Shown here: in pieces, positions 3,002 through 13,006 of the stretch
Layout of the letters: every line of letters starts with the position of its first letter
How positions within the stretch are numbered: the first letter of the stretch is position 1
Assembly (NCBI GenBank): GCA_021811745.1
Contig: JAJZNH010000258.1
Location: 1 to 13,006, forward strand
DNA length: 13,006 bases
Reading direction: 5' to 3'
Source of the DNA: Acidobacteriota bacterium
Lineage (GTDB): Bacteria > Acidobacteriota > Terriglobia > Terriglobales > Acidobacteriaceae
Position numbers and translations under genes: made by a program
Notes under the pieces: generated by a model
Database searches by the model: none
What the model saw: the letters and a program-made list of their open reading frames with translations, nothing else
Told to the model about the DNA's origin: nothing

Positions 3002-3015
3002 CTAAACATTGAAAC
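2994..3015. repeat. Perfect 8-bp inverted repeat at the riboswitch 5' edge
   Basis: GTTTCAAT (2994-3001) and ATTGAAAC (3008-3015) are exact reverse complements separated by 6 bases. The left arm overlaps the putative -10 element; the right arm contains the 5' strand of riboswitch stem P1 (GAAAC, 3011-3015). It could be a protein operator or, if transcription starts further upstream, an RNA hairpin competing with P1. Confidence 0.5.
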
Positions 3016-3090
3016 AGGGGTGCTCCACCCATGTGGGGCTGAGAAATACCCTCGAACCCGATCCGGATAATACCGGCGTGGGAAGTTTTC
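3011..3090 (+). promoter_or_regulatory. TPP riboswitch (THI element)
   Basis: The element binds thiamine pyrophosphate in the mRNA leader and lowers expression of the downstream genes. The conserved core is present in order, including CTGAGA (3039-3044), GAACCCGATCCGG (3054-3066) and TAATACCGGCG (3068-3078). Stems can be paired by eye: P1 3011-3015 with 3085-3089; P2 3018-3021 with 3048-3051; P3 3023-3028 with 3033-3038; P4 CCC 3057-3059 with GGG 3080-3082; P5 CCGG 3063-3066 with CCGG 3073-3076. It lies 74 bases before the ATG of the TonB-dependent receptor. No terminator hairpin with a T-run follows. TCCTC at 3109-3113 can pair with the GAGGA of the ribosome binding site, so control by hiding the ribosome binding site is the more likely mechanism. 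Confidence 0.96.
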
Positions 3091-3153
3091 TGATCCGAGC
3101 GGGCATCTTCCTCACATTGCGGCACGGTTCCCTTGTTTCAAGCAGCAAGAAGC

Positions 3154-3161
3154 AAGAGGAG
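3154..3161 (+). promoter_or_regulatory. Ribosome binding site fixing the receptor start
   Basis: AAGAGGAG lies 3 bases before the ATG at 3165. It fixes the start there rather than at the in-frame ATG at 3030 or at TTG 3009. Those lie within, or just before, the folded riboswitch and lack a ribosome binding site. Confidence 0.8.
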
Positions 3162-3164
3162 TCT

Positions 3165-5648
3165 ATGCAAGCAGCCGTTCGTCTCTCGCCGTCAGCCTGC
3201 AGGCGCGCCCGTCAATTCCCGGTGAATACACTCGTATTGTGCCTCTGTCTGGCTGCCACATGGGGAGCGCACGCACAACAACAAGCGCAAGGCCAAGAGC
3301 GAGATCAGGCTCCGGCTACCCCAGCAAAAGCTGCAACGAAGCCCACGCAGGCGCCTGAACCTCAGCCGCCTGCCGCGGCGCCGCAAAAGCTAACTCCTAC
3401 AACTACGACGGTGGTGGTGCTCGGCGCAGTACACGGCAACTATCTTCCGCAGCAGGTCACGGTGGGCACGCTGAGCGGAATGCCGCTAAAGAATGCGCCG
3501 CTCTCCGCCACCGTGGTGACGCGTGACCTGATGGACGACCAGGTTGCGCGGCTGCTCTCCGACGTAGTGCAGAACGACGCCTCCGTAAGCTTCGATTATG
3601 TGCCCGTGGGTTATTACGGCGACTACCAGATTCGAGGATTTCCCATCGACCTGGCCACGGGGCTAGAGATTGACGGGATGACCATCGCCGGTGAGCAGGA
3701 TGTGCCGCTCGAAAACAAAGAGCGCGTAGAAATCCTGAACGGGCTGGCCGGCGTGGAAAGCGGCGTAGCCTCGGCGGGAGGGCTAATCAATTACGTGACC
3801 AAGCCTCCGATCGGCATTCGCGCCATGGACTTGGCCACTGATCAGCGCGGGACGACCTACGGCGCCGTCGATCTGGGCCATCTGTTTGGCAGCCGGAAAC
3901 AGGTGGGCGCGCGCATTAATCTGGCGGGCGAACGAATCATGCCGTACATGATCGACACCAACGGCTGGCGGGCGGTGGGGACGGGCGCAGCGGACTGGAA
4001 GATCTCGCCCAAGGCCTTGCTGAACGCCAACTTCGAGTACCAGCACAAGACGGAACGCGACGGAAGCGGCTATCAGTTGCTGGGCGGCACCTTAGTGCCG
4101 GACATCCATCGCATTTATACATCGACGATGCTGGGTGATCAGCCTTGGGGTCCGCCCGACACCTACGACACCTTCAATACCAACGCCCGCTTCGACTACA
4201 CCTTCTCGCCCTCGTGGTTGGCCTTCGCAGAGGCCAGCCTCAGCCACTCGCTCATCCAAGACAATGTGATCTACGCCTATGGCGCAGCGATCGATCCCGC
4301 GACGGGCCTTTCTGACTGTCCGGGCACGCCCAACGCGCCTGTCTACTTCTTCTGTCCGGACGGGACCTACGGCGTGTATGACTACCGCGATCCAAATGAG
4401 CTGCGCATCGACGCCGTGGCTGAGGCCATGGTCACGGGCCACGTGCGCACGGGAGCCGTGATGAACGATCTGACGGCGGGCGTGAATCTCTTTCTGCGCA
4501 GCGTACAGCTGCCCGGATTCTACACGGCAGCCAATCCCTACTCACCCGACGGCATTGTGCAGGACGGCGCTGTATACGCATACGTGGGATCGGAAAACAT
4601 TTATCAGCCCATTACTCCGCTGCCGCAGGAGAGCCCCCTCCAATCCGCTGGGCCGCGCCGGCTGTGGGAGGACAACCATCAATCGTCGGCGGTGATCGAG
4701 GAGCGGATGCACCTGCCGGACCGGATTGAGATCATCGCCGGGGGCCGTTACGATTCTTTACGCGACCACAACTACTCGCTCTATGCTTCATGCGCCGACG
4801 CAGGGGACTTAAATCCGCGCACGGCTCCTACGCCCAACCCCTGTGCGCCCAAATTCAGCGACAAACCGATCTGGATGCCGCAGTACGCCCTCACGTTCCA
4901 TCCCGTTGCGAATGTCACTCTCTACTCAAATTACGGCGTCCAGCTATCGCTTGGCCCCGAGGGGCCCTTCTGGGTTGACAACAGCAGCCAATATCTGGCG
5001 CCATACTTTACGCGGCAGTTTGAGGTGGGCGCCAAGTACGAACCTGGACAGAGCATTCTGCTTAGCGCAGATTTCTTCCATATGCGCGCACCGTTCTTCT
5101 ATCCCAAGGTAATCCAAGCTCCAAACAGTTTTTGTCCGGCAAGCGAGTTTCAGGCGCCTGGCGACCTGTGCTTTGTATCGGAGGGCCGCCAAACCAACAA
5201 TGGTTTTGAATTCAATGCCCAAGGAAAGGCATCCAACTGGCTGCGACTCTCCGGATCAGCGGCGGCAATTCGCGCAGTTTCAACGGACACGGGTACGCCA
5301 GCGTTCAATGACAAGCAGGTGATCGATGTGCCCCGTTTGCGCACCACAGTGTCTGCAGATCTCACCGTGCCCTATGTACGCGGACTGCACCTCATGCCCG
5401 GTTGGATCTACGCGAGCCGCAATGAGGCTACCCGCGACGACAAGGTGAGTGTGCCGGCCTGGAACGTCTATAACTTGGGCGCGCGTTACACACCTGGAGG
5501 TGAGGGAGGCCGGGTGACATTCACCCTCTACGCCAATAACATTGCCAACAATCGCTATTGGTCCGATACCGGCGCAAGCTATGGCGACACGTTTGTCTGG
5601 CTGGGCGCTCCCACGACCGTACGCCTGGACGCACATTACGTCTTCTAA
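3165..5648 (+). CDS. TonB-dependent outer-membrane receptor, probable thiamine uptake
   Basis: An 827-residue outer-membrane active transporter of the siderophore-receptor-like TonB-dependent family. A signal peptide covers residues 1-37 (hydrophobic core LVLCLCLAATWG, cleavage expected after AHA). A Pro/Ala/Gln-rich linker follows (about 38-78), then a TonB-box-like TTTTVVVLG at 79-87. The plug domain starts near 95 and contains QIRGF, ERVEILNGLAGVESG and GGLINYVTKPP. The remainder is the beta-barrel, ending in the aromatic VRLDAHYVF typical of outer-membrane insertion. Several cysteine pairs in predicted surface loops (for example SDCPG...FFCPDG and NSFCPAS...DLCF) could form disulfides. 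The reading frame stays open upstream through the riboswitch, but the signal peptide and ribosome binding site fix ATG 3165. The substrate is inferred from the TPP riboswitch and the neighbours: thiamine, a thiamine phosphate or its pyrimidine moiety. Sequence alone would suggest only a TonB receptor. Confidence 0.9.
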   Translation: MQAAVRLSPSACRRARQFPVNTLVLCLCLAATWGAHAQQQAQGQERDQAPATPAKAATKPTQAPEPQPPAAAPQKLTPTTTTVVVLGAVHGNYLPQQVTVGTLSGMPLKNAPLSATVVTRDLMDDQVARLLSDVVQNDASVSFDYVPVGYYGDYQIRGFPIDLATGLEIDGMTIAGEQDVPLENKERVEILNGLAGVESGVASAGGLINYVTKPPIGIRAMDLATDQRGTTYGAVDLGHLFGSRKQVGARINLAGERIMPYMIDTNGWRAVGTGAADWKISPKALLNANFEYQHKTERDGSGYQLLGGTLVPDIHRIYTSTMLGDQPWGPPDTYDTFNTNARFDYTFSPSWLAFAEASLSHSLIQDNVIYAYGAAIDPATGLSDCPGTPNAPVYFFCPDGTYGVYDYRDPNELRIDAVAEAMVTGHVRTGAVMNDLTAGVNLFLRSVQLPGFYTAANPYSPDGIVQDGAVYAYVGSENIYQPITPLPQESPLQSAGPRRLWEDNHQSSAVIEERMHLPDRIEIIAGGRYDSLRDHNYSLYASCADAGDLNPRTAPTPNPCAPKFSDKPIWMPQYALTFHPVANVTLYSNYGVQLSLGPEGPFWVDNSSQYLAPYFTRQFEVGAKYEPGQSILLSADFFHMRAPFFYPKVIQAPNSFCPASEFQAPGDLCFVSEGRQTNNGFEFNAQGKASNWLRLSGSAAAIRAVSTDTGTPAFNDKQVIDVPRLRTTVSADLTVPYVRGLHLMPGWIYASRNEATRDDKVSVPAWNVYNLGARYTPGGEGGRVTFTLYANNIANNRYWSDTGASYGDTFVWLGAPTTVRLDAHYVF

Positions 5649-5680
5649 GCTCTTGCAATCGGGTAAAGGATGAATTCATA

Positions 5681-6859
5681 GTGAATGCAAAGGCAAAGGC
5701 TCACGGCATGGACGGCACGCTGGTCGAACCCGACTGGCCTCCGCTGACGCCCGATGAGGTAGGTGCTGTGCTGCGGGAATTTCCCGCTTTTGACGGACCG
5801 GCTGAGATCTTGACCACCAGCCCGCGACCGTTTTCCGCGGCAGGAGTGGTTGCCACGCGTGGGGGCCTGATCTTCATCAAGCGCCACAGCCGCGCGATTC
5901 GCAATCGTGAAGGACTGCTTGAAGAGCACCGGTTCGTGGCGCACCTGCGCGAGCACGGCAGACTGGCGCCGCGGGCTTTTGCCGCGCCATCGGGTCAAAC
6001 AGTCATCGAATCCGGTGAGTGGACCTACGAAGTGCAAGAAATCCCCGAGGGCGTGGACTTGTATGAGCAGGCGATCTCATGGACGCCGTTCCGCGGCGCA
6101 CATCATGCGCAGGCGGCAGGTGAAGCGCTGGCGCGGCTGCATCATGCGGCGGTGGGGTTCGGTGCTCCGCGCCGCCCGCCGCACCCCCTGGTAGCCAGCT
6201 TTACGATCTTCGCCGCACAAAATCCTGAAGCTGAGCTGCGCCGGTATTTGTCCGCGCGGCCTTCGATCGCAGATCACACCGGCGTGCGCCGGTGCGCGGA
6301 CGAGGCGCTCGATTTACTGGCTCCGTTTCACGCCGAGCTTGCGCCTCTCTTGCCCGCGCTGGCGCCGTTGTGGACACACAACGATCTGCACGGCTCGAAT
6401 CTCTTCTGGAGCGATGCGAGCGACGCCGCGCAGGCCACGGCCGTCATCGACTTCGGCCTCGCGGACCGCACGAACGCCGTGCACGATCTGGCGCACGCCA
6501 TCGAGCGCAACATCGTTGAGTGGCTTGTCCTGGTCAACGATCCCACGCACCCTGACGATGTTCCTATTCACTTCGATCATCTCAATGCGCTGCTCGACGG
6601 CTACGAAGCAGTGCGCCCGCTCACGGAAGAGGAGGCCGCGGCGCTTGCGCCCATGGCGGCGCTCTGCCACGCCGAGTTCGCGCTCTCTGAGGCGGACTAC
6701 TTTCTGGGCGTGCTGCACTCGGAAGAGAAAGCGGCGATGGCCTACGATGGCTGGCTGGTCGGTCATGCGCGCTGGTTTCGCGGCGCCGGGAGCTCACTGC
6801 TGGCTGCCTTGCGGCGCCGGGCCGAGGCGCCGCTTGCGCGGAGGACAACCCGCCGATGA
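5681..6859 (+). CDS. APH/choline-kinase-type phosphotransferase, candidate thiamine kinase
   Basis: A soluble kinase of the aminoglycoside phosphotransferase fold, 392 residues from GTG 5681. The catalytic loop is THNDLHGSNLF, with H233, D235 and N240 (Brenner motif HxDx4N), and the metal-binding DFG-like motif is VIDFGLAD with D257. The N-lobe contains IFIKRHS, whose Lys probably contacts ATP. The GTG start is preceded by AAAGGA (5665-5670) at 10 bases; ATG 5708 (383 residues) is the alternative. The gene begins 32 bases after the receptor stop and its own stop overlaps the next gene, so all three genes are probably co-transcribed under the TPP riboswitch. By context it should phosphorylate thiamine or hydroxymethylpyrimidine after uptake. 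It is longer than E. coli ThiK (about 274 residues), a member of the same superfamily. Sequence shows the kinase fold; the substrate is inference, and homoserine or sugar-like substrates are not excluded by sequence. Confidence 0.82.
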   Translation: MNAKAKAHGMDGTLVEPDWPPLTPDEVGAVLREFPAFDGPAEILTTSPRPFSAAGVVATRGGLIFIKRHSRAIRNREGLLEEHRFVAHLREHGRLAPRAFAAPSGQTVIESGEWTYEVQEIPEGVDLYEQAISWTPFRGAHHAQAAGEALARLHHAAVGFGAPRRPPHPLVASFTIFAAQNPEAELRRYLSARPSIADHTGVRRCADEALDLLAPFHAELAPLLPALAPLWTHNDLHGSNLFWSDASDAAQATAVIDFGLADRTNAVHDLAHAIERNIVEWLVLVNDPTHPDDVPIHFDHLNALLDGYEAVRPLTEEEAAALAPMAALCHAEFALSEADYFLGVLHSEEKAAMAYDGWLVGHARWFRGAGSSLLAALRRRAEAPLARRTTRR

Positions 6860-7428
6860 GCTACCTTGCCGCGCACGGCCTCGAAATCTCGGGCGTCATC
6901 ACGACGGTGCTTGGCATCTGGCTCACCACACGCCGGCTGCTCATTTGCTGGCCCATCACGCTGGTCGCCGACGTGATTTACCTCATCGTCTTTTACCGCG
7001 CCCGCCTCGACTCCGACGCGCTGCTGCAGGTTTTCTTCATCGTTTTTACGCTCTACGGATGGTGGCATTGGTGGCGCGGAGTGATTGCGGAGGGCGAGGT
7101 GCGCGTGGAACCGCTCAGTGTGCGCGGCTGGATGGCGGGGTTGGCCGCGGGCGCGGCAGGCTCCGTGCTGCTGGGCTGGCTGATGGTGCGCGTAGGCGCG
7201 GCACTGCCGCACTTGGATGCGACGCTGGCCAGTTACTCGCTGGTCGCCACCTGGTGGCAGACGCGCAAGCACATCGCCAATTGGTGGTTGTGGATTGTTG
7301 TGGACGTGGTCTACATCGGCGAATACGTCTACAAGAATCTGCAGGCCACGGCGCTTCTCTACGCGGGCCTGGTGCTGCTGGCAGTCCTGGGATTGCGCGA
7401 CTGGCGGAGCGTGGCGCAGTCCGTTTAG
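6856..7428 (+). CDS. pnuT: PnuC-family transporter, probably PnuT-type thiamine carrier
   Basis: A 190-residue inner-membrane protein with about seven hydrophobic segments. PnuC-family marks are the Trp-rich YGWWHWW (67-73) and the C-terminal block with D121, S126, T132, Q135, K138, N142-W143 and D150 (TLASYSLVATWWQTRK...NWWLWIVVDVVY). PnuC proteins move unphosphorylated nicotinamide riboside by facilitated diffusion; PnuT members, predicted or shown in riboswitch-controlled loci, do the same for thiamine. The TPP riboswitch and receptor upstream favour thiamine here. The ATG overlaps the kinase stop (ATGA), with GGAGG at 6840-6844, so translation is probably coupled. A channel-like carrier needs a kinase to trap its substrate, which explains the pairing with the gene before it. 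Nicotinamide riboside remains the alternative substrate. Confidence 0.85.
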   Translation: MSYLAAHGLEISGVITTVLGIWLTTRRLLICWPITLVADVIYLIVFYRARLDSDALLQVFFIVFTLYGWWHWWRGVIAEGEVRVEPLSVRGWMAGLAAGAAGSVLLGWLMVRVGAALPHLDATLASYSLVATWWQTRKHIANWWLWIVVDVVYIGEYVYKNLQATALLYAGLVLLAVLGLRDWRSVAQSV

Positions 7429-8504: not shown

Positions 8505-9182
8505 TTAAACCGCGAGCAGATCGGTGTAAACCGCCATTCCGACCACGGCGTCGGCGCCCAAGCCGTCCAGCGCGTCGACTTCCTGTTGGCTGCGAATGCC
8601 GCCGGCCACGATGAGCTGCCGCTGGGTAAGTTTGCGCAGACGCGCGGCAACCTCAACGGGAAAGCCCTGCATCAATCCCTCGCCGTCCACGTGCGTGTAA
8701 AGGAACGCCTTCGCGTACGGTTCGAGCTGAGGAATCGCTTCATCCGGCGTGAGCGCGACCTGCGCCTTCCAGCCTTTGACGGCAATGCGGCCGTTCTTGG
8801 TGTCGATGCCGGCGACAATGTGGTCGGCGCCGATGCTCGCAGCGAGTTCTGCAGCGAAGTCCGTGTTCACTTTGCCTTCCACCGAAAAGAGCGCCGACCC
8901 GATGATGACGCGCCTGGCTCCGGCCGCGAGCACCTGGCGGGCACGCTCAATGGAGTGGATGCCGCCGCCGGCCTGAACGGGCAGACGCTTGGCGAGCTGC
9001 TCGACAAGTTTGGAATTTTCGCCCTGGCGCATGGCCGCATCGAGGTCGATTAGCTGAACCAGCGGGTAGCGCGAGAATTTTTCGATCCAGTATTCGAAGT
9101 CGTCGAAGGCGAGACAGAGCTTTTCGCCCTGCACGAGCTGCACGATGCGCCCGCCGAGTAGATCAATAGAAGGAATCAGCAT
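8505..9182 (-). CDS. hisA: ProFAR isomerase (1-(5-phosphoribosyl)-5-[(5-phosphoribosylamino)methylideneamino]imidazole-4-carboxamide isomerase), divergent type
   Basis: Fourth step of histidine synthesis: isomerisation of ProFAR to PRFAR on a TIM barrel. The 225-residue protein keeps both acid/base aspartates, D7 ([10 protein letters not shown]) and D127 (AGIDTKNG), plus the phosphate-binding glycines QAGGGI (70-75) and VAGGIR. It is about 20 residues shorter than common HisA. The usual loop TDIsrDGTl is replaced by [12 protein letters not shown], somewhat like the HAADVEG of eukaryotic HIS6, so the family assignment is firm but the subtype is unusual. The ATG lies inside the end of hisF, sharing ATGCTGA (7 nt), with GAGG just upstream. 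It is the last his gene in view. Position after hisH and hisF supports the call. Confidence 0.9.
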
Positions 9183-9955
9183 GGAAGCCTCACAGGAACG
9201 CCGGCTTGCGCCAGGTCTTCTTTCAGTGCCCGCGCGCTCTTTACGCCGAAGTGGAAGATACTTGCCGCCAGCGCCGCGTCGGCTTTGCCGCGCGCAAACA
9301 CATCGGCGAAGTGGGCTACGGTTCCCGCACCGCCGGAGGCGATCACGGGGATGCTGACGGCTTGGCTCACCGCTGCCGTCAGCTCGCAATCGAAGCCCGC
9401 GCGGGTGCCGTCGCAGTCCATTGAGGTGAGCAGGATTTCGCCCGCGCCGCGCTGCTCGGCCTCGCGCGCCCATTCGACTACGCGGCGGCCCACGGGCTTG
9501 CGCCCGCCGTGCACGAAGACCTGCGCATCGCGGACTGGATCGGAGGCGTGGGGATCGCGGCGCGCGTCGATAGCGACGATGACGGCCTGTGCGCCGAAGC
9601 TCGCGCCGATGGCGGTGATGAGTGTGGGGTCGGCGAGGGCGGCAGAGTTGATGCTTACCTTGTCGGCGCCGGCCTCGAAGACCTGCTCCGCGTCGCGCGC
9701 GGAGCGAATGCCGCCACCCACGCAGAAGGGAACAAAAAGCTCGCGTGCGGTACGGCGCACGGTATCGAGCAGCGTCTGCCGGCCCTCGTGTGTCGCCGTA
9801 ATGTCGAGCAGCACAATCTCGTCCGCGCCTTCGCGGGCGTGGCGGGCGGCCTGCGTGGCCGGATCGCCCGCGTCCACAAGATCGACAAACTGCACACCTT
9901 TGACAACGCGGCCGGCGTGCACGTCGAGACAGGCGATGATGCGCTTGGTTAACAT
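9176..9955 (-). CDS. hisF: Imidazole glycerol phosphate synthase cyclase subunit
   Basis: HisF uses ammonia delivered by HisH to convert PRFAR to imidazole glycerol phosphate and AICAR. The 259-residue TIM barrel has the catalytic aspartates D11 ([16 protein letters not shown]) and D130 ([10 protein letters not shown]), matching the classic HisF numbering exactly. Phosphate-binding loops are [15 protein letters not shown] and VIASGGAGT. The start at 9955 is fixed by AAAGGAG four bases upstream and by the conserved N-terminus [12 protein letters not shown]; an upstream in-frame ATG at 9976 would add seven non-conserved residues. Its start overlaps the hisH stop by 7 nt (ATGTTAA), consistent with coupled production of the two synthase subunits. 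Confidence 0.96.
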
Positions 9956-10569
9956 GCGGCTCCTTTCGCCTGCCATGCGAGGAAATTGTGGAGGATCCGC
10001 AGCCCCGTAGCGCCAGACTTCTCCGGATGGAACTGCACGCCCATCACGTTGGCCCGCTCAATGGCCGCGGCGAAGGGTTCAATGTAATCGGTGACGGCTG
10101 CGGTATCGGCCGTTACGGGGCCTTTGTAAGAGTGCGTAAAGTAGACGTACTCGCCGGGGACGAGGCCGGCGAGAAGACGTGATCCGTCGCGGATTTTGAG
10201 ACAATTCCAGCCAACGTGCGGGATTTTTTCTTTTCCTTCCGGGAAGCGAGCACACTGCTCGGGAAAATGCCCGAGCCCGGGTTGGTTTGGCGCTTCGCTC
10301 GATCCTGCGTAGAGCCACTGCATCCCTACACAAATGCCCAGAAATGGCACGCCGCGTGCGATGGCGGCGCGAATCGCAGGGGTGAGACCGGTCGCGTCGA
10401 GCCGCTCCGTGGCTTGAAAGTGGCCGACGCCGGGCAGCACGATGCGCTCCGCGGATTCGACGAGCGACAGATCGCCGTCTGTGACCTCCGGCTCAGCACC
10501 CAGATGGCGAAGCGCCTTAAGCACTGAGGTGAGGTTGCCGGCTTTGTAGTCGATGACGGTTACACGCAT
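9949..10569 (-). CDS. hisH: Imidazole glycerol phosphate synthase glutaminase subunit
   Basis: HisH is the class I glutamine amidotransferase that feeds ammonia to HisF. The 206-residue protein begins [12 protein letters not shown], has the nucleophile C80 in GICVGMQ, and the His/Glu pair H181 and E183 in [14 protein letters not shown] is the usual HisH signature. The ATG at 10569 has GAGG upstream. The frame is open further upstream, through the octamer repeats, but that extension is repeat-derived and not family-like. It overlaps hisF by 7 nt and follows hisB after a 114-nt gap. Confidence 0.96.
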
Positions 10570-10583
10570 AAAACCTCGGAAGA

Positions 10584-10673
10584 GCAAGTCAGCAAGTTGG
10601 CAAGTCTGCGAGTCAGCAATTTGGCTCCGCTGCGTGGAATCGCAAGCTGGCAAGTTCGCGAGTTGACGCGTTG
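10584..10673. repeat. Degenerate 8-bp tandem repeat between hisB and hisH
   Basis: On the plus strand five consecutive octamers occur: GCAAGTCA, GCAAGTTG, GCAAGTCT, GCGAGTCA, GCAATTTG (10584-10623). After an 18-base unrelated spacer come GCAAGCTG, GCAAGTTC, GCGAGTTG and a decayed unit (10642-10673). The consensus is about GCAAGTYN. The 23-bp blocks 10592-10614 and 10642-10664 match at 19 positions. It fills most of the only sizeable gap in the his cluster. Confidence 0.75.
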
Positions 10674-10683
10674 AATTGGTAGT

Positions 10684-11331
10684 TCATAGAAGGCCCTTGG
10701 TTGAAGGCAACATCTCGCCTAGTTGCTTGTCGCGCGAACAGGCCACGCGCAGCGCCCGGGCGAAGGCCTTGAAGATGGCCTCGATCTTGTGGTGACTGGA
10801 GCGGCCGTACATGGTTTTGACGTGCACATTCGCCCGCGCGCCGCGCGCAAAGCCTTCAAAAAAGTCCGTCACTAGTTCGGATTGCAGGTCGCCGACCAGC
10901 CGCGTGCGCACCTTGGTATCCACGGCGTAGGCCGTGCGTCCGCTCAGGTCCACGGCGGCAACAGCGAGCGTCTCGTCCATGGACATGACGAAGTAGCCGG
11001 CGCGCAGAATGCCGCGCTTGTCACCGAGGGCGCGGTCGAAGGCTTCGCCGAGGGCGATGCCCACGTCTTCGACCGTGTGGTGCTGATCGACATCCAGATC
11101 GCCTTTGCAGGCGAGGTTGAGGTCAAAAGCGCCATGGCGCGTGAAAAGCTCCAGCATGTGATCGAAGAATCGGATGCCGGTGGAGACGTTGTATCGGCCT
11201 TGGCCCTCGATCGTCAGTTGCAGGTCAATGCGCGTTTCGGCGGTATGGCGCACGATGGTTGCGGTGCGTTTGCCGGTCTCCCAAGTCTCATCTGCCGCTT
11301 TGGATTTCGTGGTGCTCTTCTTCGTTCTCAT
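10684..11331 (-). CDS. hisB: Imidazole glycerol phosphate dehydratase (monofunctional)
   Basis: HisB removes water from imidazole glycerol phosphate to give imidazole acetol phosphate, using a di-manganese centre. The 215-residue protein has the two metal-binding His clusters HHTVED (84-89) and HHKIE (180-184), plus [13 protein letters not shown]. It is the dehydratase alone, without the N-terminal phosphatase domain of the enterobacterial fusion, so histidinol phosphatase must be encoded elsewhere. About 20 N-terminal residues ([12 protein letters not shown]...) form a basic, probably disordered tail before the conserved [12 protein letters not shown]. The ATG overlaps the hisC stop (ATGA). 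Confidence 0.96.
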
Positions 11332-12425
11332 CGCGTCTCGCTTTCTGCCCGCAGCGCGGCCAGCGTTTCGTTGAGGGCTGCGGCGGCTTGCCGCATCTGC
11401 TCGCGGGTTCCGATGGTGATACGCACGCGGCCGTCGCAGCCGGGATCGCTCGACCGGTCGCGCACCAGCACGCCCCTGGCGCGCATCAGCCGGACAAACT
11501 CTGCGTGCCGCGCGCCAATCTCAATCAGAATAAAGTTGGCGCGGCTGGGCCAGCGGCGCACTCCCGCCGCATCGAGCGCGGCTTCGAACTCGCCACACGC
11601 GGCAAGCACCTCGCCCACGTACCAATCCAAGTAAGCCGTGTCTTCGAGCGCCGCCGGCAGGCAGGTGAGAGCCAGCGAGTTCACGCTATAGGGCGAAAGC
11701 ACGCGGCGCACCCAGCGCATCAGTTCGGCGGGACCCGCCAAAAGCCCGAGGCGCAAACCGGCCAGACCGTAGGCCTTCGAGAAAGTGCGCGCCACCACAA
11801 GATTAGGCAGCGTACCCACGAGGTCCATCACCGTTTCGCCACAAAAATGGAAGTAAGCTTCGTCCACCAAAAGCACGGCCTGCGGCGCGCAGCGCGCAAG
11901 TTCGAGAAGCTGCCCGCGCGTAGCGGTCGAGCCGGACGGGCTGTTGGGATTGGCGATGGCGATGATCTTGGTCTGAGGCGTGACCGCGCCGAGCAAGTGC
12001 TCGAAGGGAAACCGCAAATCATCCGCGGCCTGGACGGCGACGGCCTTGGCCTCCGTTGCCGAGGCGTAGACCTGGTACATGGTATAGGTGGGCACGGGGA
12101 GCAGCAACTGATCACCGGCCTCGAGGAAGGCCTCGAAGAGCACGTGAATGGCCTCATCGACACCGTTGGTAAGCGCCACCTGCTCCGCGCGCAGACCGAG
12201 ATGCGTGGCCACGATGGCTTCGACAGGCTCGCGCTCGGGATAGCGCGTGAGCGAACCGCTGGAGATGCGGGCCAGCACTTCGCGCACCTTCGGCGAACAG
12301 GCTACCGTGTTCTCGTTGAAGTCCAGGCGCAACGCATCGCGGCTGCCGAGCGGAGGGTGATACTCCTGCATCGCCTGCACACGCGCGCGGGGCACGGGAG
12401 TAATCGTAGTCAGCACTTCAGCCAC
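11328..12425 (-). CDS. hisC: Histidinol-phosphate aminotransferase
   Basis: A PLP-dependent class I/II aminotransferase that converts imidazole acetol phosphate and glutamate to histidinol phosphate. The 365-residue protein has LDFNENT near the start, [20 protein letters not shown], and the PLP-binding K217 in [14 protein letters not shown]. The GTG at 12425 is preferred because an excellent ribosome binding site, AAAGGAGG, lies 4 bases upstream and the resulting length suits the family; in-frame ATGs at 12449 and 12491 would reach further into hisD without such a site. The GTG overlaps the hisD stop by 8 nt (GTGGCTGA). Confidence 0.95.
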
Positions 12426-13006
12426 GGGACCTCCTTTTTCCTCGGGCATTGCTGCCAAGCCGTACACGGATGGCCGCGGCGTGGGCGGCAAGCCCTTCGG
12501 CTTCCGCCAGCAGCGCCGCCTTCGGTCCCAATCCCCGCAGCGCCTGCGCCGTGTACTCCTGCACGGTGATGAGCTTGACGAAATCGTTCACGCTTAATCC
12601 GCCACGCACTCGCGCCATGCCGCCAGTGGGCAATGTGTGATTGGGACCGGAGATATAGTCGCCCATGGGCTGCGCCGACCAGCGGCCGACAAAGACGGAG
12701 CCTGCATTCTGCACCCAGACTAGATCGGCGGCTGAGTCGACGGTGAGATGCTCGGGAGCAATGCGATTGGTGATCTCGCGTGCTTCCTCAACCGATCCGG
12801 CCAGGAAGACGTACCCATTGCGGCCGAGCGCCGCGCGCGCCACGGCATTTTCGCGGCTGCGCAGCTTGGCCTCGGCGATCACGGCATGGGCCAGCTCCGC
12901 GCGCGTGGTGATGAAGATGGCCAGCGCCTCGGGATCGTGCTCGGCCTGAGCAACGAGATCCGATGCAATCGCTGGTGCATCGCCGCGCTCGCTGGTGACG
13001 ACGATC
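12418..13006 (-). CDS. hisD: Histidinol dehydrogenase (C-terminal part, cut by window edge)
   Basis: HisD carries out the last two oxidations, histidinol to histidine, with NAD and a zinc ion. Only the C-terminal 195 residues are inside the window; the start lies beyond 13006. The visible part includes the opening IVVTSERGDAPAIASDL, the catalytic Glu-His pair in NRIAPEHLTV, GDYISGPNHTLPTGG, and GLSVNDFVKLITVQEYT. GLAAHAAAIRVR near the end carries the C-terminal zinc-ligand histidine. It is the first his gene in view, overlapping hisC by 8 nt; hisG may lie further upstream. Confidence 0.95.
   Translation of the reverse strand, partial: IVVTSERGDAPAIASDLVAQAEHDPEALAIFITTRAELAHAVIAEAKLRSRENAVARAALGRNGYVFLAGSVEEAREITNRIAPEHLTVDSAADLVWVQNAGSVFVGRWSAQPMGDYISGPNHTLPTGGMARVRGGLSVNDFVKLITVQEYTAQALRGLGPKAALLAEAEGLAAHAAAIRVRLGSNARGKRRSRG

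Follow-up and report, generated by a model that had tools for sequence, protein, structure and literature searches.

A TPP riboswitch operon of Acidobacteriaceae joining a TonB receptor and a PnuT-like carrier to a predicted APH-fold thiamine kinase

What does an APH-fold kinase do in an operon that stands behind a thiamine pyrophosphate (TPP) riboswitch? The question is raised by a 13,006-nucleotide contig of an Acidobacteriaceae genome (JAJZNH010000258.1, assembly GCA_021811745.1; hereafter the window, meaning the whole stretch of DNA analysed), in which a TPP aptamer is followed by genes for a TonB-dependent receptor, the kinase and a PnuC-family carrier. Our analysis indicates that the operon probably serves TPP-controlled import and trapping of thiamine, with a predicted thiamine kinase that would make thiamine monophosphate (TMP) and ThiL finishing the conversion. 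A reading made earlier from the letters alone (the sequence-only reading) had proposed an alternative metabolic-trapping kinase here. Gene context supports that proposal, and the best supported of the three reactions it considered is formation of TMP from thiamine, with ThiL acting next, because acidobacterial kinase carriers keep ThiL (30/33) and lack thiamine pyrophosphokinase (TPK; 0/33). The ATP-binding cassette (ABC) context in Bacillota, the link with loss of ThiC and the switch mechanism go beyond that reading.

Operon layout, recurrence and switch

The elements of the operon, all on the forward (+) strand of the window, are as follows.

3006-3101, +: complete TPP riboswitch aptamer, RF00059 (cmscan 67.2 bits, gathering score 54.3, E 1e-11)
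3126-3139, +: predicted switching strand of the expression platform, pairing with 3149-3163 or with about 3008-3025
3149-3163, +: Shine-Dalgarno strand of the receptor gene as predicted from the fold, closed in the predicted OFF state
3165-5648, +: TonB-dependent outer-membrane receptor, 827 aa, predicted thiamine receptor (TIGR01783 241.6 bits, cut-off 223.5; plug domain 47.3 bits)
5681-6859, +: APH-fold kinase, 392 aa, GTG start, predicted thiamine kinase yielding TMP (PF01636 69.3 bits, cut-off 23.2)
6856-7428, +: PnuC-family inner-membrane carrier, 190 aa, PnuT-like (PF04973 153.9 bits, cut-off 27.3)

All four of the elements that the sequence-only reading had described, a complete TPP aptamer and three tightly spaced genes, were recovered, with 32 bases between the receptor and kinase genes and an overlap of 4 bases between those of the kinase and carrier. 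The receptor start was taken at 3165; the start at 3009 in the list of open reading frames is mechanical, and that frame runs through the aptamer.

The same layout recurs across the phylum. A scan of genome contigs with the kinase, from which the best 80 of at least 550 confirmed stretches were taken as loci (numbered L, with genomes numbered G), included 63 Acidobacteriota loci, among which the receptor was found in 61, the carrier in 62 and the aptamer in 49 (in L007 the aptamer is cut by the contig end). Where at least 3.3 kb upstream and at least 0.6 kb downstream were available, receptor, carrier and aptamer were all present in 45 of 47 loci, and this joint recurrence argues that the four-element layout is not due to chance. 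The two incomplete loci are L036, which has no aptamer (also by Rfam), and L076, which has neither such a receptor nor an aptamer. The aptamer model used in these searches, R1, derives from nine of these aptamers, which accordingly match it by construction.

The aptamer carries CTGAGA at 3039 and ACCCGATC at 3056, which we take to be core motifs of TPP aptamers, and ends 63 bases before the receptor ATG. Downstream of it, the strand at 3126-3139, with the core CCCUUGUUUC, pairs with the 5′ strand of the aptamer at −21.0 kcal/mol (RNAduplex; 0 of 200 shuffles as low), and a hairpin of −14.0 kcal/mol is predicted over the Shine-Dalgarno site. In 46 of 51 loci no more than 5 of 200 shuffles, which keep base composition only, gave a strand-swap pairing as low; those in which the pairing did not beat the shuffles were L011, L049, L055 and both of the sphingomonad loci tested (L002 and L005). 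On folding predictions, the acidobacterial loci fit a translational OFF switch that works by strand exchange: at low TPP the leader would stay open and the receptor gene would be translated, and TPP, by folding the aptamer, would free the strand at 3126-3139 to close the Shine-Dalgarno site.

Genome-wide searches, which used stricter filters that lose weak matches and whose positions were mapped by hand, recovered the operon's own aptamer in 31 of the 32 genomes G001-G032 (in G007 the contig is cut). It scored 54.1 bits in G008, just below the gathering score. In 28 of those genomes it was the only TPP aptamer found, and within this set ThiC is present in exactly the three genomes with further TPP aptamers (G002, G008 and G032). 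The genome with the incomplete locus L076 (G041) has one TPP aptamer, which does not adjoin the kinase.

The carrier gene lies third behind the aptamer on the same strand, and its product also scores above the PnuC cut-off (TIGR01528, 74.8 vs 42.45 bits). Of 68 carriers, 59, that of the window among them, have WxxWxxxD where the E. coli PnuC motif is WxxWxxxN, at a site that presumably bears on the cargo of PnuC-family carriers. Like PnuT, the window carrier belongs to PF04973 and stands under a TPP riboswitch; it is called PnuT-like from its family and riboswitch. According to passages of one paper, what a PnuC-like carrier transports can be predicted from the class of its riboswitch (PMC7749635). 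PnuT itself reportedly works by facilitated diffusion, and for such a carrier a kinase that traps the cargo would be sensible.

The closest known arrangement is in Bacteroidetes, where the passages available from one study place OMthi, pnuT and tnr3 in one operon in most of the gut species examined, so that TPP riboswitch, TonB receptor, PnuT and a thiamine-phosphorylating enzyme (predicted in our case) occur jointly in both systems (PMC5613172). The two differ in the enzyme: Tnr3 in Bacteroidetes, an APH-fold kinase in the window, with TPK found in 0 of 150 Acidobacteriaceae. Tnr3 is a thiamine pyrophosphokinase.

The kinase and the thiamine pathway of its carriers

The sequence-only reading had recognized an HxDx4N and DFG kinase of about 390 residues, and the protein indeed has 392, with HNDLHGSN at residue 233 and DFG at 257. 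Its profile score, these motifs and its fold all place it in the APH/PF01636 superfamily (predicted model with a mean local distance difference test score, pLDDT, of 91.0). That reading had also called the enzyme unrelated to TPK, and this stands for the catalytic domain PF04263, which was not found in the kinase (the Pfam search gave only APH and a sub-cut-off DUF1679 at E 0.1). The word fits less well for thiamine kinases, since E. coli ThiK is a member of the wider APH/choline kinase superfamily. ThiK would share with the window kinase the predicted reaction, and works alongside ThiL in the absence of TPK, yet the two proteins show little alignment: BLASTP spans only 61 residues (E 0.023; 274 vs 392 residues), and the kinase gave no match at E 1 to the ThiK profile TIGR02721 (cut-off 299.45 bits), against which the control, E. 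coli ThiK, scored 338.1. At their cut-offs the kinase also falls outside homoserine kinase type II (ThrB_alt, TIGR00938; 32.5 of 255.9 bits, with 18-20% identity to 2PPQ), PRK11768, which we take to be the SrkA/RdoA type (24.0 of 194), and APH(7″) (17.4 of 640), so that the profile check suggested earlier leaves it outside ThiK, homoserine kinase II and PRK11768 alike. Among the matches listed by the fold searches, the nearest solved structures were homoserine kinase 2PPQ and an N-acetylhexosamine kinase; no thiamine kinase appeared among the best 50 matches of each search, an absence that excludes nothing.

Relatives are numerous (3152 at E 0.001 among 7998 candidates scored), and among the best 120 the source labels, where there are any, read "phosphotransferase" or "RdoA"; none were found in the viral contigs searched. 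A tree of 47 kinases groups them mostly by taxon. Twenty kinases from the Acidobacteriota, plasmid and Bacillota groups, 34-82% identical to the window kinase, share 53 invariant columns, which suggests one substrate across these groups. No description linking this kinase to thiamine was found in listings and passages of the literature, and one may be in print in subscription journals.

A pointer to that substrate comes from the pathway genes of the carriers. The survey covered ThiL, TPK, ThiK, ThiC, ThiG, ThiD and ThiE/TenI in 49 kinase-carrying genomes (33 Acidobacteriota, 8 Bacillota and 8 Pseudomonadota), picked non-randomly from the best kinase matches. ThiL above cut-off was found in 30/33, 4/8 and 8/8 of these groups, respectively, TPK in 0/33, 8/8 and 0/8, ThiC in 3/33, 6/8 and 8/8, full-length ThiG (>300 bits) in 2/33, 8/8 and 8/8, and ThiD above cut-off in 3/33, 8/8 and 1/8, while ThiK above cut-off was found in none of the 49. 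The other seven Pseudomonadota have full-length ThiD matches under the cut-off (162-169 bits), and the acidobacterial genome G005 has a ThiG fragment of 24 bits, barely above the Pfam cut-off. ThiL is kept in 27 of the 30 acidobacterial carriers that lack ThiC; a match above cut-off is missing in three acidobacterial carriers, G001, G007 and G012. The check for thiL, thiN or thiC proposed earlier, run here for ThiL, TPK and ThiC in the 33 acidobacterial carriers, returned 30, 0 and 3. Within the reach of these searches, most of the acidobacterial carriers would make neither half of thiamine, would be unable to use hydroxymethylpyrimidine (HMP) by the known route, and would have no TPK or ThiK. 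Because no synthesis, TPK or ThiK was found and yet ThiL is kept, a thiamine kinase appears to be the missing step in these organisms.

Within the family the kinase goes with loss of ThiC. In a phylum-wide draw just 2 of 149 genomes carried the kinase, and these included the genome at the centre of the draw (G030); a family sample of 150 Acidobacteriaceae, again including G030, was therefore used, with the kinase called at E 1e-30 or better. The kinase was found in 12 and ThiC in 136. Two kinase carriers have ThiC (G032 and G277) and 10 do not, vs 134 with and 4 without among the kinase-less genomes (Fisher p 5.4e-11, or 4.8e-10 without G030, for 150 related genomes, many of them metagenome-assembled).

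Three ThiC-less acidobacteria have ThiE-type proteins of 117-126 bits (ThiE cut-off 145.1), compared with 149.5 and 173 in two ThiC-bearing carriers. These sub-cut-off ThiE-like proteins are encoded at L086:4956-5588, L087:4947-5585 and L088:4947-5615, in genomes without ThiC, ThiD and ThiG; in L086 the gene adjoins one for an amino-acid transporter.

The kinase on plasmids and in other phyla

Outside Acidobacteriota the kinase was found on plasmids. Thirteen loci, fetched from 35 plasmid records with a kinase match, have the receptor beside the kinase in 13/13, the carrier in 12/13 and the aptamer in 5/13. Sphingomonad plasmid loci have receptor 6/6 (by Pfam), carrier 5/6 (the sixth cut by the record end) and aptamer 5/6, and receptor and carrier are present in all four Burkholderia and all three Acinetobacter loci; gene order varies, the kinase being last in Burkholderia and first in Acinetobacter. 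Sphingomonad receptors (L002, L003, L005, L110-L112) did not match the window receptor at E 1e-5, though they are TonB receptors by Pfam, which suggests that the kinase is kept while the receptor type changes. The phmmer search with the window receptor likewise missed the receptor of a Telmatospirillum metagenome-assembled genome (L072), which Pfam recovers as it does the sphingomonad ones; this locus has receptor, kinase and carrier. The sequence-only reading had called for a survey of whether homologues keep company with TPP riboswitches and pnuT, and would have been refuted by homologues lying mostly away from thiamine genes; in the loci examined they adjoin uptake genes with a thiamine link. 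Several further features were seen at these loci. The Acinetobacter cassette (L004, L113, L114) is flanked by genes for a GntR-type regulator and an aldehyde dehydrogenase; two of the three Acinetobacter plasmids, and 24 of all 35 matching plasmid records, are typed as mobilizable. In Burkholderia cenocepacia (L108:1757-4200) the receptor match is split over two adjacent reading frames.

In Bacillota the kinase has a different partner. All nine loci show the order NMT1/THI5 protein, NMT1/THI5 protein, kinase, ABC permease and ATPase. In L069 the first binding protein scores 450.7 bits against 4NMY of Clostridioides difficile (E 2.3e-134, 297 residues) but only 100.3 bits against 3IX1, which binds formylaminopyrimidine; the scores of the second, 68.8 and 62.9 bits, respectively, place it further from either structure. 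In the part of the source seen, 4NMY is listed as an ABC-transporter substrate-binding protein "with thiamin-bound" (PMC10586155). This resemblance suggests that members of the kinase family also partner another importer, one unrelated to TonB/PnuT and probably carrying thiamine. The protein that adjoins the Bacillota kinase is thus a close relative of 4NMY, whose system is an ABC one, unlike the TonB/PnuT pair of the window. A C. difficile ABC operon with unproven cargo lies behind a TPP riboswitch, according to passages of a review (PMC11477304). The NMT1/THI5 context had at one stage been taken as a sign of a pyrimidine substrate, a suggestion overturned by the match of the first binding protein to thiamin-bound 4NMY. 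A TPP aptamer of G044 (C35) that seemed to lie near L080 was found on a different contig. Structure prediction for the Bacillota binding protein gave low confidence (pLDDT 50.4), and the model was left unused. Downstream of the kinase cluster, L068, L069, L075 and L080 have a gene containing two rhodanese stretches, and a MerR regulator is present in L069 and L080.

The best matches of the window are to Acidobacteriota, in line with its origin. Around the operon it carries unremarkable genes: mqnC, those for two tRNAs and a hydroxyacid dehydrogenase and, on the opposite strand, histidine genes. The latter (8508-12882, − strand) include hisF, hisH and hisB above cut-off, with hisA (158.6/228.95), hisC (272.2/276.55) and the 3′ part of hisD (148.7/243.8) below it.

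Competing explanations and implications

The most economical reading, and a probable one, is that the enzyme is a thiamine kinase making TMP. The TonB receptor would take scarce thiamine across the outer membrane, thiamine would equilibrate into the cytosol through the PnuT-like carrier, and the kinase would phosphorylate it to TMP, which would be retained inside the cell and converted to TPP by ThiL, encoded elsewhere. In Acidobacteriaceae without ThiC, ThiD and ThiG, the operon would then be the only route to TPP.

Several observations weigh against this. Bacillota carriers have TPK in 8/8 and lack ThiL above cut-off in 4/8, which makes TMP an odd product there. A ThiE/TenI-type protein (PF02581, which does not tell ThiE from its relatives) is present in 49/49 carriers, with only 27 bits in G018. 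Outside Acidobacteriota and sphingomonads, a TPP aptamer beside the kinase was not found in the loci examined: none in the nine Bacillota loci (R1 on all nine, Rfam on five, and genome-wide positions), none in four Burkholderia and three Acinetobacter loci (L004 by Rfam; L113 and L114 by R1 only), and none in seven Oxalobacteraceae loci (R1 on all, Rfam on L078 only), and none in Telmatospirillum L072. N. capsulatum L003 likewise gave none, nor did L076 with R1. The Oxalobacteraceae loci have receptor and kinase in 7/7 and a carrier of this kind in 0/7 (L074, L078, L079 and L082-L085 being receptor-kinase pairs without a PnuC-type carrier). At the carrier site, Asn, as in E. coli PnuC, stands in 9 of 68 (8 acidobacterial operon members and 1 Burkholderia), and because it occurs in operon carriers too, the Asp/Asn site does not decide the cargo. 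Most of the acidobacterial genomes surveyed are metagenome-assembled, of unstated completeness and close kin; for the same reasons the Fisher test overstates independence in the family sample, where four of the 138 kinase-less genomes (G197, G244, G262 and G307) also lack ThiC and either are incomplete or use another thiamine route.

Could the kinase instead be an APH-fold thiamine pyrophosphokinase that replaces Tnr3 and makes TPP in one step by diphosphate transfer? It does occupy the place of tnr3 in the OMthi-pnuT-tnr3 operon as passages of one study describe it (PMC5613172), TPK was found neither in the 33 acidobacterial carriers nor in the 150 family members, and G001, G007 and G012 have no ThiL match above cut-off. 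These three genomes may, however, be incomplete, and ThiL, which would be of little use to such an enzyme, is kept in 27/30 of the ThiC-less carriers. Diphosphate transfer is not known to us for any enzyme of the APH fold, and we consider one-step TPP synthesis unlikely. A substrate outside thiamine metabolism, such as a homoserine-like molecule, a nucleoside (e.g., nicotinamide riboside), an antibiotic or a protein, with a cargo other than thiamine, would accord with the nearest solved folds, with the label Ser/Thr kinase RdoA that one source gives to relatives, with the carrier's score above the PnuC cut-off and its Asn in some members, and with the failure to find an adjoining aptamer in the loci examined outside Acidobacteriota and sphingomonads. 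The scores of the kinase against the homoserine kinase, PRK11768 and APH(7″) profiles are nevertheless far under their cut-offs, and different data underlie each of the other pointers (the TPP aptamer, the link between the kinase and ThiC loss, and the relative of a thiamine-binding protein), so that a non-thiamine substrate seems quite improbable.

Less probable still is a kinase acting on a precursor or breakdown product of thiamine, for example HMP, which the operon would then import. The family of the Bacillota NMT1/THI5-type proteins includes pyrimidine binders and THI5 enzymes, and a ThiE/TenI-type protein persists in carriers, but the first Bacillota binding protein is far nearer to thiamin-bound 4NMY than to 3IX1. 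The sequence-only reading had offered HMP as an option; since ThiD above cut-off is missing in 30/33 and full-length ThiG in 31/33 of the acidobacterial carriers, HMP phosphate would be a dead end in most of them, and an HMP kinase was set aside.

Returning to a thiamine kinase that makes TMP, we think it rather likely that the enzymes described here are APH-fold thiamine kinases of one widespread, non-orthologous family. That family, also carried on plasmids, would have been combined with two or more unrelated thiamine importers (TonB/PnuT in Gram-negatives and a thiamine-binding ABC system in Bacillota), and would be the sole entry to TPP in a thiamine-auxotrophic clade of soil Acidobacteriaceae, under the control of the one TPP riboswitch that these bacteria have. 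For a strand-swap TPP riboswitch, the operon leader would serve as a simple model open to experimental test. If the proposed function is true, it would give a role to a kinase family labelled "phosphotransferase" or "RdoA", fill a gap in the thiamine pathway of auxotrophic soil bacteria, and provide a genomic marker for organisms that depend on the vitamin B1 of other microbes.

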